A stretch of DNA of 64,000 nt, taken from assembly GCA_963855995.1 (NCBI GenBank), contig OY979717.1:64766243-64830242 (forward strand). Direction: 5' to 3'. Shown here one piece after another: positions 53,094 through 61,269 of the stretch. The notes under the pieces were generated by a model. It worked only from the letters and a program-made list of their open reading frames with translations. It did not search any database and was not told where the DNA came from. The DNA is from Muricea muricata. Lineage: Eukaryota > Cnidaria > Anthozoa > Malacalcyonacea > Plexauridae. The position numbers and the translations under genes are program-made. Position 1 is the first letter of the stretch. Each line of letters opens with the position of its first letter.

Positions 53094-56000
53094 ATGAATT
53101 TCCAGAAAGGTTTTGTAAATTTAGGCAATACATGCTTCGTCAACAGCGTGTTACAATCGCTTCTGTCGATGAGCAGTTTCGTAGAAGGTTTTGGAAAACT
53201 TTTGCACAACAAAAAGCGTTGCTCCTCCTTAATCACAAATGGTAAGGGACCGTTGATTATTTATTAGGAGGGGGATGGGTGATTTTTAGATTGACACAAC
53301 TTAAAATTTCAGGTCTCCACATTGGTTAGCAACATATTCCAAGCCCCCCCCCCTTCGAAGATTAACTGATAATTTTTGTGAATAGAAATTACCTTAAATA
53401 GAAAGTACTTAAAAAGGCATTTCTCCAAGAGGCAGCTACTCTGCTACTGCAAGCTGTTGTCACAGCTAGAAATGTGAACAAGCACAAAGGCAACAGGGAA
53501 GCATTGTGTAGTCAATATAGTGACAATGATTATGGCCTTCCCTATTCATGTTTGAACGGATTGACTCCCCCCCCCCCTCCACACACACACATCTTCCTGA
53601 AAATTTCAGATCCTCCCATTTTATCACCTATCCCCTTCTCTCTCCCCTCCCATATATAATGAATGGTCCCACCCACTCCCCCCACTCTGGCAAATGAAAT
53701 TACCTGGCAATAGACAGAGTAAAATAATGAAGTAGGTGAGTTCAGGTTCATTCTCACCTGAAAGGTAAAGTACATCATAATCTCCTGTAATTGATATTGA
53801 TGTGTTGTTTTGAAAAAAATGCTTCCCACCTCCCCCTAAAAAAGTGATGGGATCCCTTATTTGTGCTTGCCCTCCCTCTTGGGTTGCTTGAACCTGTTAT
53901 TTAATGCACACATGTACATCACAACATACATGCGAGTCTTTTTTTACCAAAGTCAGTTTGATATTTATAATATGTAATATGTATATAAGTTGTGAAAAGT
54001 TGAGTAAAACTTATTTTTTCATGCACTCATTTACCCCACCCTTCCATTGTTTTGAATGCCCTCACCTAACAAAATTGAATTAAATTTTAAATGATAGCAC
54101 AGGGTGATGTACTTTGAATATTTACAAAAATAAAACATGACAGCCTAGTGATCAAGCAATTCTTTACCATTTGTTTGCTACACATACAGTATTTAATTTA
54201 CTTGAATATTTGTAAGAATTCTAATTAATATTATAATTTGCTATAGCTAAATTAGCCAAATGCAATCTCTTAAGAAAATTAGATGACAACTGCTGTACAA
54301 GTACTACAATCTTTATAAACATAATTTTTTTATAAATTAGGAAAGAAATGTGTGATTTGCTGCACTTTAAGTGTTCTCAAGCTCTATCAAACAGCACCAG
54401 GAGTTGTTCGGCCAACAGCACTGCTTTCGTGTTTACCACAAATGATAACAGGCTTTGTTAAAGGTTCACAACAATGCACAGTAGAATTTTTTCAAGAATT
54501 TTGGAGGTTGTTGGGTGAGAATGCTGATCATCTTCAAGCCATTGGTTTGATTCCAAGACATTGTAACCTCAAATTCCTAAACTCGTTCAGCATTTCACTG
54601 AGCAGTGAAGTGTTATGCAGCGTATGTAACAGTGTCACCCAAAACAGGGTTACAGAAACAGTTCTCCCACTACCTGTAATGAAGGTAAAAGCACAATATT
54701 TTTAAAATATGGTAATGGACCCAGCTAGTAAAGTATTAATAACCCTTTTGTACAGTATTAGGAGGTAATGTTTTTAAATGTGCCATGTTTATTATTTTAA
54801 TTTGACCATCAAATGCCAAACGATTTTTTATATATGAATATATATATATATATATATATATATATATATATATATATATATATATATATATATATATATA
54901 TATATATATATATATATACATATACATACACATACACATACACATACACATACACATACACATACACATACACATACACATACACATACACATACACATA
55001 CATATATATATATATATATATATATATATATATATATATATATATATATATATATATATATATATATATATATATATATATATATACATACATACATACA
55101 TACCTACATACCTACATACATACATACATACATACATACATACATACATACATACATACATACATACATATATATATATATATATATATATACATATATA
55201 TATATATATATATATATATATATATATATATATATATATATATATATATATATATATATATATATATATATATATATATATATATATTATACATACAAAT
55301 AAGACACAAAGGCTTAGCAAGTTGTGTAAGGCATATTCATTACTATTTAGTTTCGTACTACACTTAGTGATATGATAACATAGGCTATTTGTCTGAAGAG
55401 TGCTACACTAAGTGTAGTACGAAACTAAATAGTAATGAATATGCCTTACATAACTTGCTAAGTCTTTGTGTCTTATTTGTTGATTATGCTCTGGAAATCC
55501 ATTGAGCACTTTATAATTGGTTTATATATACATGTATACATATATACATACATACATACATACATACATACACACGCACACGCACACGCACACACACACA
55601 CACATATGTACACATATGTACACATATGTACACACACACACACACATATGTATATACAAGGGCCTTACTTAAACTTTAAGGATTAAGTAGCCTATCTGTC
55701 CAAGTGTCTGAATTAGTAAATGGCAGCATTCCAGCATTGTATCTGGAAGTATTGCTACTTGCCCTAATACTGGCAGCACCAGTGCAGTTGTGTCGGTGCA
55801 CTGACAAGTAAATTCGTCTGGTGTTAGACAGAGTTAGTACTGAAGTAAGGTGCATCTAAGCTGCTTCCCAGCAAATGGGTTTACAGTAAGCAGCAATGTT
55901 TTGAGGTACACCCTCCTTTCACATTTACCCTAATGCTAGAAGATTTAACTCATTAGGGGATAGCACTTGTGCTTAATAGGTTAATCCTTAGTTTGCTTGG

Positions 56001-59000: not shown

Positions 59001-61269
59001 ACAGGCGAAAGAAGAAGCCAAAAGACGTAAACAAAAGCGTTACGGCACTCACGCTTCAAATATCGTGGTTTCGGACAAAATCCACTTGCTATCCAACGTG
59101 CGTAATAAAAAAACAGACTGCCAGAGTAAAATGGCAATAAAAATTGCTACGACAGCGGTGAATGGAAATACATGCGAAGTGGAGTTATGGTGGAATCATA
59201 ACCACAGTGTTGACAGTCACCATCTTACCTCTTTTAGTGCAATCTTACCCGCAACCAAGGACAAATTTTTAACGTATTTCAAGCAAGGTATGTCGGCATC
59301 AGAGTCATTCCATTATCATGAGACACTATTTATGAAGGATCCTGTTACTGTGCTGCTTTTGGCTGACAGGAAATATTGCCCATCACTACGCGATGTCAAC
59401 AATCTCTATGAAAAATGGAGAAAAACAGAAAAGGGGCCGTGCAACGGATCTGAGATGTTTGACTATCTCGAGGATTACACAACCAAGTATAACAAAGAAA
59501 ATCAACATAACGGCGGCAATATCTTTCTACAAAGATACAGCGATTCTGAAGAAGAGAAACCATTGATAATCGCAATATGCACTCCAATGATGTCTCGTGT
59601 GCACAAGTTACAGCAAGCGGGGGAAATGGCTTTTATGGACTCATCAGGAAGCCTTGATCGACATAACAATCCAGTATATTTTATGTGCACCCACCATCCA
59701 TCTGGTGCTCTCCCTTTAGCAGTTTGGGTAACATCCAGCCAGTCAGAACCTACACTGAAAAACTGCCTAAATAAAGTTAAAGCAGTATTGCCAAAGCACG
59801 CGTTTGGTGGCAATGGGCCAGAGGTCGGCCCTTCGATTTTCCTCACAGATGATGATAGTGCGCAAAGAAATGCACTTCGTGCGTATTGGCGTTCGTCTGT
59901 TCTTCTCTTATGTATATTTCACTTTCTTCAGGCTGTGTGGAGATGGCTATTAGACGGTGCAAATTTAATAAATAAAAATGACCGGCAACACCTAATGTCC
60001 CTGTTTCAAGAGCTGGTATTTGCTGATACAGCTGATAAATTTGATACCAAAGAGAATGAAGCCGTGTCCGACCAGACAGTGCTAAGATACCCAAATTTCA
60101 AAGATTACCTCGAACATGCATTGGAAAGAAAGGAACAGTGGGCACTTTGTTTCCGAAAAGGACTAAAAACAAGGGGAAACAACACTGACAACTTCACGGA
60201 ATCAATGATTTTTGTTTTTAAATGTGTTATCCTTAAACGCATTAGAGCTTACAATCTACTCGAACTTTTGAAATTTATTACAGAGGATCTAGAAATGTAT
60301 TTTCAAAGAAAGCTGTTAGCACTTGCTTTCGGTAAGCCACAAAACCTACACGTGACTTCCCGCTGCTTTGGAAGAGATGCCAGCACAGTACCAATTGACA
60401 ACATAAAAAGGGACGAAACAAAACCTTTTGCGTTCAGCGTACGTAGTAGGAATAAAAACATCACATACGAGGTTGACACAAGTTTGGGAAAATGCACGTG
60501 TCCACGTGGTGAAAATGGTAATGCATGTGCGCATCAGGCTGCTGTTGCCTTGCAATATGGAGGAAGAAACCTTAACTTTATTCCACAGTCCCCCCGGGAA
60601 CGATACAAACTAGCCGTGTTAGCAATTGGAGAGAATCCTCAACTAAATGTGGCAAAGTTTGTTCAGTTGCATGAAAAGCCTGACTGCTCAGCAAATATTG
60701 TGGGTGATAACGAAGGCATAGACGAGAATGGACATGAAAATATACCCCAGCAAAACGTGGAAATTAGTAATCCAGAGAGTTTTTTTTTTGACAAAGAGTG
60801 CGATGAAACTATATCTCTTGACAAAATCATTAAACGACATCATGAAGTTGCAGCTGACATTGAATTGAAATTAAGAAATGAAGACAGCAACTTCCAAAAA
60901 TGTTATTTCAATTTTCTAAAGACATATCAGAAAATAGTGACTAAATGTCGTGGACACTCCCCCGTAGCATCACTTTCCAGTGCATTTGCACACTTCGGTA
61001 AACAGCAGAACAATCTCTTACCAGTTTTACACAATGGTTCACGAATACGAGTACAACCTACATCAATTTCTAGAAGGAAGTCCGCCATAAAATCATCCTC
61101 TGCACAACCCCCAGGACCCAAACCAAAACCTCAAGCAGAGAGAAAGAGAAAGTGGAACCCTGATGAGAAAGAAAACATGAAGATTAGGAAACAAGCAAAA
61201 AAGAAACGTCAACATAGCCTAAGTATCAATGTGAAGAAAAATGTGGCAAATGCTGGACCTAAACGTTAG
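53094..61269 (+). CDS. USP-Ulp1-MULE transposase fusion protein (deubiquitinase + deSUMOylase + DDE + SWIM)
   Basis: Four exons join in phase: 53094-53241, 54341-54684, 56175-56248, 56658-61269; 1,725 aa. USP domain about 1-310: Cys box [16 protein letters not shown] (Cys14), CSVC and CERC zinc knuckles, His box GHYTCY (His270), Asp286 and [10 protein letters not shown] Ser/Thr/Pro-rich linker follows. Ulp1/C48 domain about 613-813: DGDHW (His702), YLDS (Asp719), Gln767 and NSVDCGVF (Cys773). Residues about 900-1045 have CxC, C and HNH spacing like the WRKY-GCM1/FAR1 zinc domain of MULEs. DDE core: MAFMD (Asp1183), FLTDDD (Asp1253), CIFH (1274-1277), NFTES (Glu1370). SWIM finger [14 protein letters not shown] (1468-1481). 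The tail is strongly basic ([14 protein letters not shown]), probably nuclear targeting. The USP helper box reads QQCTVEF rather than the usual QxDAxEF. Introns occur only in the USP part. The ATG of exon 1 sits 13 codons before the catalytic Cys, so the USP start is compact. Confidence 0.9.
54834..55288. repeat. Compound microsatellite (TA)n / (TACACA)n / (TACA)n
   Basis: About 455 bp of alternating TA runs, TACACA units (about 54918-55003) and TACA units (about 55085-55170), in intron 2 of the transposon gene. Long frames across it (YIYIYI-type) are artefacts of the repeat. Confidence 0.95.
55295..55480. mobile_element. 186-bp hairpin MITE inside the transposon gene intron 2
   Basis: Arms starting acaaataagacacaaag and ending ctttgtgtcttatttgt match over about 73 bp with two or three differences (tactatttagtttcgtacta in both). 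It lies directly against the microsatellite. Non-coding. Confidence 0.85.
55535..55660. repeat. Microsatellite (TACA)n / (CACACG)n / (CA)n
   Basis: Short runs of TACA, CACACG, CA and catatgta units, in the same intron as the larger compound microsatellite. Confidence 0.9.

Follow-up and report, generated by a model that had tools for sequence, protein, structure and literature searches.

Does a single transposon protein in the anthozoan Muricea muricata combine a ubiquitin-specific protease (USP) domain, an Ulp1/C48 SUMO-protease domain and a DDE transposase and, if so, what would the two proteases do for the element? The question was raised by an initial annotation of a 64,000-nucleotide stretch of contig OY979717.1 (GenBank assembly GCA_963855995.1, forward-strand positions 64,766,243 to 64,830,242), referred to here in its full length as the window. 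A four-exon gene at 53094-61269 was read there as encoding one chain of 1,725 amino acids (aa) with USP, Ulp1, DDE and SWIM domains. We obtained Pfam matches for all four domains in this product. The gene lies inside a complete transposon of 10,131 bp (52842-62972), which is probably an autonomous, recently active Mutator-like element (MULE). Relatives were sought in the host assembly (453 Mb, 74 contigs). The window element is termed copy A, and three further copies from the assembly are termed B, C and D.

Inspection of splice sites in the window gave a stop-free 1,725-aa product from four plus-strand exons, and every intron had GT/AG borders. Exon 1 (53094..53241) contains the start codon and the USP Cys box with Cys14, and alone matched the Pfam profile UCH at 2e-8. 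Exon 2 (54341..54684), which is kept in copies B, C and D, encodes the middle part of the USP with the QQC motif and the first CxxC pair; by itself it gave no UCH match in Pfam. Exon 3 (56175..56248) continues the USP into the second CxxC pair, and exons 1-3 joined matched UCH at 6.4e-13. Exon 4 (56658..61269) is one open frame for the catalytic-His half of the USP, the Ulp1 domain, a DNA-binding-like region, the MULE DDE core, the SWIM finger and a basic tail. This long frame gave Pfam matches to UCH (1.3e-25), C48 (1.3e-13), MULE (5.2e-5) and SWIM (2.5e-4), and an NCBIfam search with exon 4 returned no matches. The spliced N-terminal 313 aa form a complete UCH/USP domain (151.6 bits, cut-off 23.9, 3.8e-44). 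At least 18 alternative stop-free splice combinations were present among those listed for the window gene, but the chosen splicing gives an unbroken USP alignment (UCH positions 2-254 of 254).

The C-terminal half of the USP (56658..57021, plus strand), which includes His270 and the third catalytic position and accounts for the UCH match of the long frame, shares an uninterrupted frame of 1,554 codons with Ulp1 and the transposase. An open frame of this length has a chance of ~10^-32, assuming equal codon use. The fusion of this USP part to the transposase is therefore independent of splicing, and the possibility that two neighbouring genes were mistaken for one was ruled out. We infer the joining of exons 1-3 to exon 4 from homology and from the sister copies; copies C and D each have four exons, with GT/AG borders at positions matching the window gene. 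The objection considered in the initial annotation, that the USP exons might never be joined to the last exon, is thus weakened for the His-box half but not for the exon with the Cys box.

The SENP1-like Ulp1/C48 domain (57862..58515, plus strand) contains His702, Asp719, Gln767 and Cys773, all identical in 4/4 copies (A-D). The Pfam match covers its last 122 aa, and its upstream border is estimated. Its best PDB match was SENP1 (E=2.6e-15), and that of the USP domain was USP36 (E=3.1e-29). Each of these host enzymes resembles the corresponding element domain by sequence but is without a transposase; in the alignment, Cys95 and Ser285 of the element stand opposite Asp and Asn of USP36. Within the element USP, all four copies agree at Cys14, at His270 and at the two zinc CxxC pairs. 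The region before the DDE core (58804..59271, plus strand) had been described as a zinc DNA-binding-like segment. It gave no significant Pfam match (FAR1 only at E=0.79); however, Cys1010, His1036, His1038 and His1043 are present in 4/4 copies, and the region is a probable DNA-binding zinc cluster. The MULE-type DDE core (59272..60441, plus strand) contains Asp1183, Asp1253 and Glu1370, a triad of our own assignment, with C-x2-H between the second Asp and the Glu. The SWIM zinc finger (60487..60561, plus strand) scored 21-23.7 bits against a cut-off of 19.6, and 13.3 bits, under the cut-off, in copy D. None of the DDE residues or SWIM ligands varies among the four copies. A PDB search with the transposase region gave no matches up to E=10. 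The basic C-terminal tail (61120..61209, plus strand) reads as a probable nuclear localisation signal.

Local alignment of the flanks revealed a 29-bp terminal inverted repeat (TIR), GCAGAAATTTTTTTTGGGATCACTTTCTT, at 52842..52870 on the plus strand, and its inverted counterpart at 62944..62972 on the minus strand; 29/29 bases match. Immediately outside the TIRs are the two halves of a perfect 9-bp target-site duplication (TSD), AGCGCGCGT, at 52833..52841 and 62973..62981. In the control for the terminal repeats, two matches were found in 0/100 shuffles. The TIRs, the target duplications and the copies described below were absent from the initial annotation, and they back its identification of the protein as that of a transposon.

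Six of 1,725 aa distinguish copy B (C6:7291195-7301270) from copy A, and copy B has its own 9-bp TSD, CACGCGCGT. Copies C (C2:27938076-27946940, TSD ACGCGGTGG) and D (C6:2987746-2996449, TSD ACACGGCAA) belong to a sister subfamily with ~62% identity to A; copy C has a frameshift near the C-terminus and encodes 1,648 aa, whereas the frame of copy D stays open throughout (1,686 aa). A broken copy at C8:7176605-7185794 (the C8 copy, TSD CTGCCGTGA) represents a third subfamily, in which USP, Ulp1 and transposase pieces follow in unchanged order. Its identity is 51-52% in the transposase, 35-49% in the USP and 30-47% in Ulp1. Because the three subfamilies of the host assembly share one domain order, the USP was present before they split. 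Both ends are also present in a broken copy at C2:5633778-5642600, whose 9-bp flanks differ at 3/9 bases, and in a seventh copy at C1:99559814-99572577. Among six copies compared, five (A, B, C, D and C8, but not C2:5633778) have a perfect 9-bp duplication. Each of these five TSDs contains CG, which hints at a CpG-rich target preference, five being too few for a test.

The exon 4 protein had at least 37 matching stretches in the assembly (best 30 of 224 candidates). The first 26 bases of the TIR were found at 58 genome sites with ≤2 mismatches, versus 0 for the reversed pattern. Fourteen of these sites are the two ends of the seven copies; the other 44, counted by eye, have no inverted partner within 20 kb and could mark the termini of non-autonomous or decayed relatives. 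The element transposase and the TIR gave 0 matches each in a viral contig collection, and exon 4 gave 10 pattern matches and no relatives in a wider collection of genome contigs.

The 9-bp duplication, the TIRs, the SWIM finger and the MULE profile together point to a Mutator-like element. MULE target duplications are described as 8-11 bp long, usually 9, and MULE TIRs as 14-500 bp long (PMC6446971); the 9-bp TSD and the identical 29-bp TIRs of the element fit these ranges. Against the cut-off of 27.6 bits, the MULE profile PF10551 reached 24.1 bits with the long frame, 27.5 bits with a trimmed piece and 28.8 bits in the genome search; copy D scored 25.7, under the cut-off. A related transposase at C10:3392659, 41% identical, matched MULE at 3.8e-12 and also the ZSWIM1-3 RNase H family. 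The assignment to MULE transposases is marginal by profile alone and firm when this relative is taken into account. Near-identical copies A and B at separate sites with differing TSDs suggest that the element is probably mobile. Three other identities were rejected. A KDZ element was rejected on the Pfam scan, which had no KDZ match, and on the genome search, in which 0/66 KDZ matches (132/132 candidates scored) fell inside the element. For Ginger1, the Pfam scan had no rve match, and the 9-bp TSD is of other sequence than CCGG/CCGT. The plant Kaonashi/VANDAL KIU type was rejected on the presence of TIRs and on the position of Ulp1 in the open frame of the transposase.

Substitutions were counted pairwise by the Nei-Gojobori method for A-D, C-D and A-B. 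Between A and D, identity was 62.8% in the USP (dN 0.25), 70.2% in Ulp1 (dN 0.18), 67.9% in the DNA-binding-like region (dN 0.19), 81.2% in the DDE core (dN 0.11) and 68.0% in SWIM with the C-terminal part (dN 0.21), versus 26.2% and 35.7% in the linkers (dN 0.92 and 0.55). This contrast between domains and linkers is the sturdy part of the constraint evidence. The substitution pattern indicates that the USP and Ulp1 have been constrained between subfamilies like the transposase, and that the linkers have not.

Sister elements keep both protease domains, and therefore the proteases probably aid the jumping or the persistence of the element. We favour the reading that the USP and Ulp1 both actively support transposition, with a probability of roughly 0.6. 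The zinc and DDE parts would bind the terminal repeats and move the element by cut and paste, making cuts staggered by 9 bp. Both proteases, brought to the DNA by the fused transposase, would act where the transposase acts. Their targets for the removal of ubiquitin and SUMO could be the transposase, which would thereby escape degradation, and/or chromatin and repair proteins at the cut site; self-protection together with local action at the transposition complex is the favoured form of the proposal. The initial annotation had proposed, as a hypothesis, that the protein strips both modifiers from itself or from silencing and repair factors. The protein sequence holds one SUMO-interacting motif (FDDD-VIIT, at aa 524), which is no signal (148/1,000 shuffles hold at least one), and no excess of sumoylation consensus sites (4 observed vs 4.8 expected).

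Several observations weigh against active support of transposition by both proteases. Silent changes between A and D approach saturation: pS reaches 0.72 in the USP, and for Ulp1, DDE and the C-terminal part no dS could be computed. The A-D omega values, ~0.10 in the USP and 0.43 and 0.36 in the two linkers, are therefore rough. Between C and D, the USP has 9 silent and 13 replacement changes and an omega of only 0.40; the other C-D values (Ulp1 0.26, DDE 0.40, linkers 1.0 and 1.3) rest on small counts. Over 1,660 codons, A and B differ by 3 silent and 6 replacement changes, and counts this small cannot reveal recent constraint. The C8 copy is without the first zinc Cys of the USP and the Trp after the Ulp1 His. 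The match to the MULE profile is marginal, and AlphaFold models made without an alignment (pLDDT 34.4 and 39.3) were unusable. A USP match at C1:74377122-74378275 consists of three pieces with 47-68% identity to the element USP and one stop, and no Ulp1 or transposase match lies near it among the matches listed; we took it as what may be a relic of the element family, the alternative being a host donor gene. Two catalytic features of the USP also belong here. Canonical USPs have QQD at the motif that reads QQC in copies A-D and in the C8 copy, and the third catalytic position, Asp/Asn elsewhere, is Ser285 in A-D. Because of these two features, ubiquitin cleavage by the element USP is not certain.

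The same features would suit a USP whose catalysis has been lost or changed and which reads ubiquitin or another modifier, thereby keeping the transposase at chromatin or repair factors that carry ubiquitin, with only Ulp1 an active protease. We consider this unlikely. Conservation of Cys14, His270 and both zinc CxxC pairs in 4/4 copies speaks for a working enzyme, and in the C8 copy the residue at the third catalytic position is Asn. Ser285 does not imply a dead enzyme, because USP30 is reported to be active with a Cys-His-Ser triad (PMC8927814).

The proteases might also serve mainly to cut the long protein of the element itself, freeing the transposase from the N-terminal part. The fast-evolving linkers that separate the modules would be compatible with such processing, as would QGGY, a Gly-Gly motif that copies A and D share with the C8 copy immediately ahead of the DNA-binding-like region. 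Viral relatives of Ulp1 likewise cleave polyproteins. However, the Gly-Gly motif may have a structural role only, and Pfam scans revealed no ubiquitin-like domain before it. Self-processing as the main function is improbable.

Passenger capture deserves still less credence. The USP, and perhaps Ulp1, would then be a piece of a host gene that the transposon picked up, as Pack-MULEs do, and would contribute nothing to transposition. MULEs tend to take up host gene fragments (PMC6446971), the USP part has introns and the transposase part has none, and the transposase-free match at C1:74377122-74378275 could be the donor gene. On the other hand, the exon structure is common to copies A-D, and a third subfamily has the domains in unchanged order. 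Because the USP and Ulp1 are constrained like the transposase between subfamilies and the linkers are unconstrained, both passenger capture and domestication are unlikely. Domestication into an immobile host gene of transposon origin, to which the single long intact gene near a HAUS3-like host gene might point, is barely credible beside the perfect TIRs and TSD of the window copy, the separate TSD of a near-identical copy at another site and further copies in the genome.

Among 103 listed MULE matches (from the best 150 of 269 candidates), 5 were preceded within 10 kb by a C48 and a USP match, both on the same strand as the MULE match, and all 5 are of the window-element family. C48 was found 2-4 kb downstream on the same strand, with no USP within 10 kb, in 10/103 (C1:112627393, C9:4615639, C1:93221420, C13:8886156, C1:85239502, C1:71220895, C1:2881945, C13:5660965, C3:26531445 and C7:535221). 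By their predicted order of domains, which is reversed, these ten are another Ulp1-bearing MULE class. The remaining 88/103 had neither C48 nor USP nearby.

Fifteen of 47 C48 matches had a same-strand USP match within 5 kb, in every case upstream, versus 0.03 expected by chance. Eight of the 15 pairs are in copies of the window-element family; the other seven have no MULE match nearby. Two of these seven, at C1:44268124-44269773 and C2:47560033-47561682, each lie within an open frame of 1,952 codons and represent a second class with USP followed by C48. The other five, at C1:39021276 (L060), C1:62829646, C1:81988286, C1:52755066 and C1:65014316, are by their like order and spacing probably broken relatives of this class. 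At L060, a weak Ig-like match, under the Pfam cut-offs, follows the protease. The USPs of the 1,952-codon frames were not among the matches in the search with the element USP (54/54 candidates scored), and the pairing in the second class was therefore called apparently independent. A related second-class USP, at C1:39021396, does match the element USP, at 28%; the other matches outside the family were C10:13557266 (29%) and C14:3053434 (43% over 61 aa). Beside the 1,952-codon frames we found no match to KDZ (66 matches, 132/132 candidates), to rve (best 150 of 2,271) or to Helitron_like_N (best 150 of 352), and a further 1.5 kb on the downstream side held only repetitive minus-strand frames. 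We tentatively suggest that a paired USP and Ulp1 eraser could be a functional module that mobile elements have acquired more than once, in the MULE, where selection has maintained it across subfamilies, and, apparently independently, in the 1,952-codon frames; acting at the transposition complex, it would be a general counter-measure to control by ubiquitin and SUMO; the idea is possible rather than likely.

Other features were noted in and around the element. A GIY-YIG fragment (61853..62095, plus strand; PF01541 2.7e-7) is probably a nested insertion of another element, and it falls where copies A and B align unbroken. The second intron contains, between microsatellites, a palindromic stretch of 186 bp (55295-55480) that is 87% identical to its own reverse complement and is also present in copy B. 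On the minus strand, an exon at 45669-46139 matches HAUS-augmin3 at 7.3e-9 (Pfam). We take 52470-52660, on the same strand, to be the first exon of this HAUS3-like gene, with its start codon at 52653; the insertion lies ~190 bp upstream of the start codon so read. A 394-bp inverted repeat (48813-49206 and 50023-50416, 95% complementary, 816 bp apart) looks like a small transposon or foldback element. Beyond the window, ~5.5 kb past the element, there is a KDZ transposase match (C2:64834765-64835112), which recurs with the same score at four other places. An Rfam scan of 50000-64000 at gathering scores gave no matches.

Known systems share parts of this architecture. Ginger1 has a DDE transposase fused to an ovarian tumour (OTU) or Ulp1 protease, 'either OTU or Ulp1 ... 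but not both' (PMC2836005). It differs from the window element in its Gypsy-type integrase, its CCGG/CCGT target duplications and the C-terminal position of the protease, and its authors proposed a role of such protease domains in transposition and repair (PMC2836005). The same paper (PMC2836005) refers to Mutator elements with Ulp1 in hydra and lancelet, whose original entries are Repbase reports; these elements, compared here by citation alone, resemble ours as MULEs with Ulp1. It also describes a Trichomonas vaginalis protein, XP_001314237.1, in which a transposase is joined to a peptidase C19 (USP-type) domain; in contrast to our element, the transposase core is transposase_11, and the available text on it mentions no Ulp1 (PMC2836005). 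Plant Kaonashi/VANDAL KIU shares with our element the MULE superfamily and an element-encoded Ulp1. However, KIU is described as one of three genes in non-TIR elements (PMC13317346), whereas the window element has TIRs, Ulp1 in the transposase chain and a USP in addition. MuDR-6_HM of Hydra is likewise an animal MULE with a deubiquitinase-class domain; this domain is OTU instead of USP, and its table row gives no zinc finger and no Ulp1 (PMC6446971). Helentrons carry two isopeptidase-class domains, VTD and OTU, in one mobile element (PMC9741609). Unlike our element they are built on a rolling-circle Rep/helicase, both domains are of deubiquitinase classes, and the available text mentions no SUMO protease (PMC9741609). 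The authors of the VTD study suggested that a deubiquitinase encoded by an element may shield transposition proteins from the proteasome (PMC9741609).

A search of the open-licence literature by title and start of abstract, with Repbase reports outside its scope, found no USP and Ulp1 together on a MULE or other transposase. The initial annotation knew of no described element with both domains; this holds for the exact combination in the literature searched, but C19 (USP-type), Ulp1 and OTU domains had each already been published on transposases. Within that literature, the new part is the combination of USP and Ulp1 on a MULE transposase.

Transposons of several unrelated kinds thus carry isopeptidase domains. 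Proposals that these domains serve transposition or repair have been made, though not tested in the available text of PMC2836005 and PMC9741609. The element described here is complete and was probably mobile recently; a deubiquitinase-type and a SUMO-protease-type domain are both fused to its DDE transposase, and its sister subfamily shows which residues are retained. It makes the question of why transposons carry ubiquitin and SUMO proteases directly testable.

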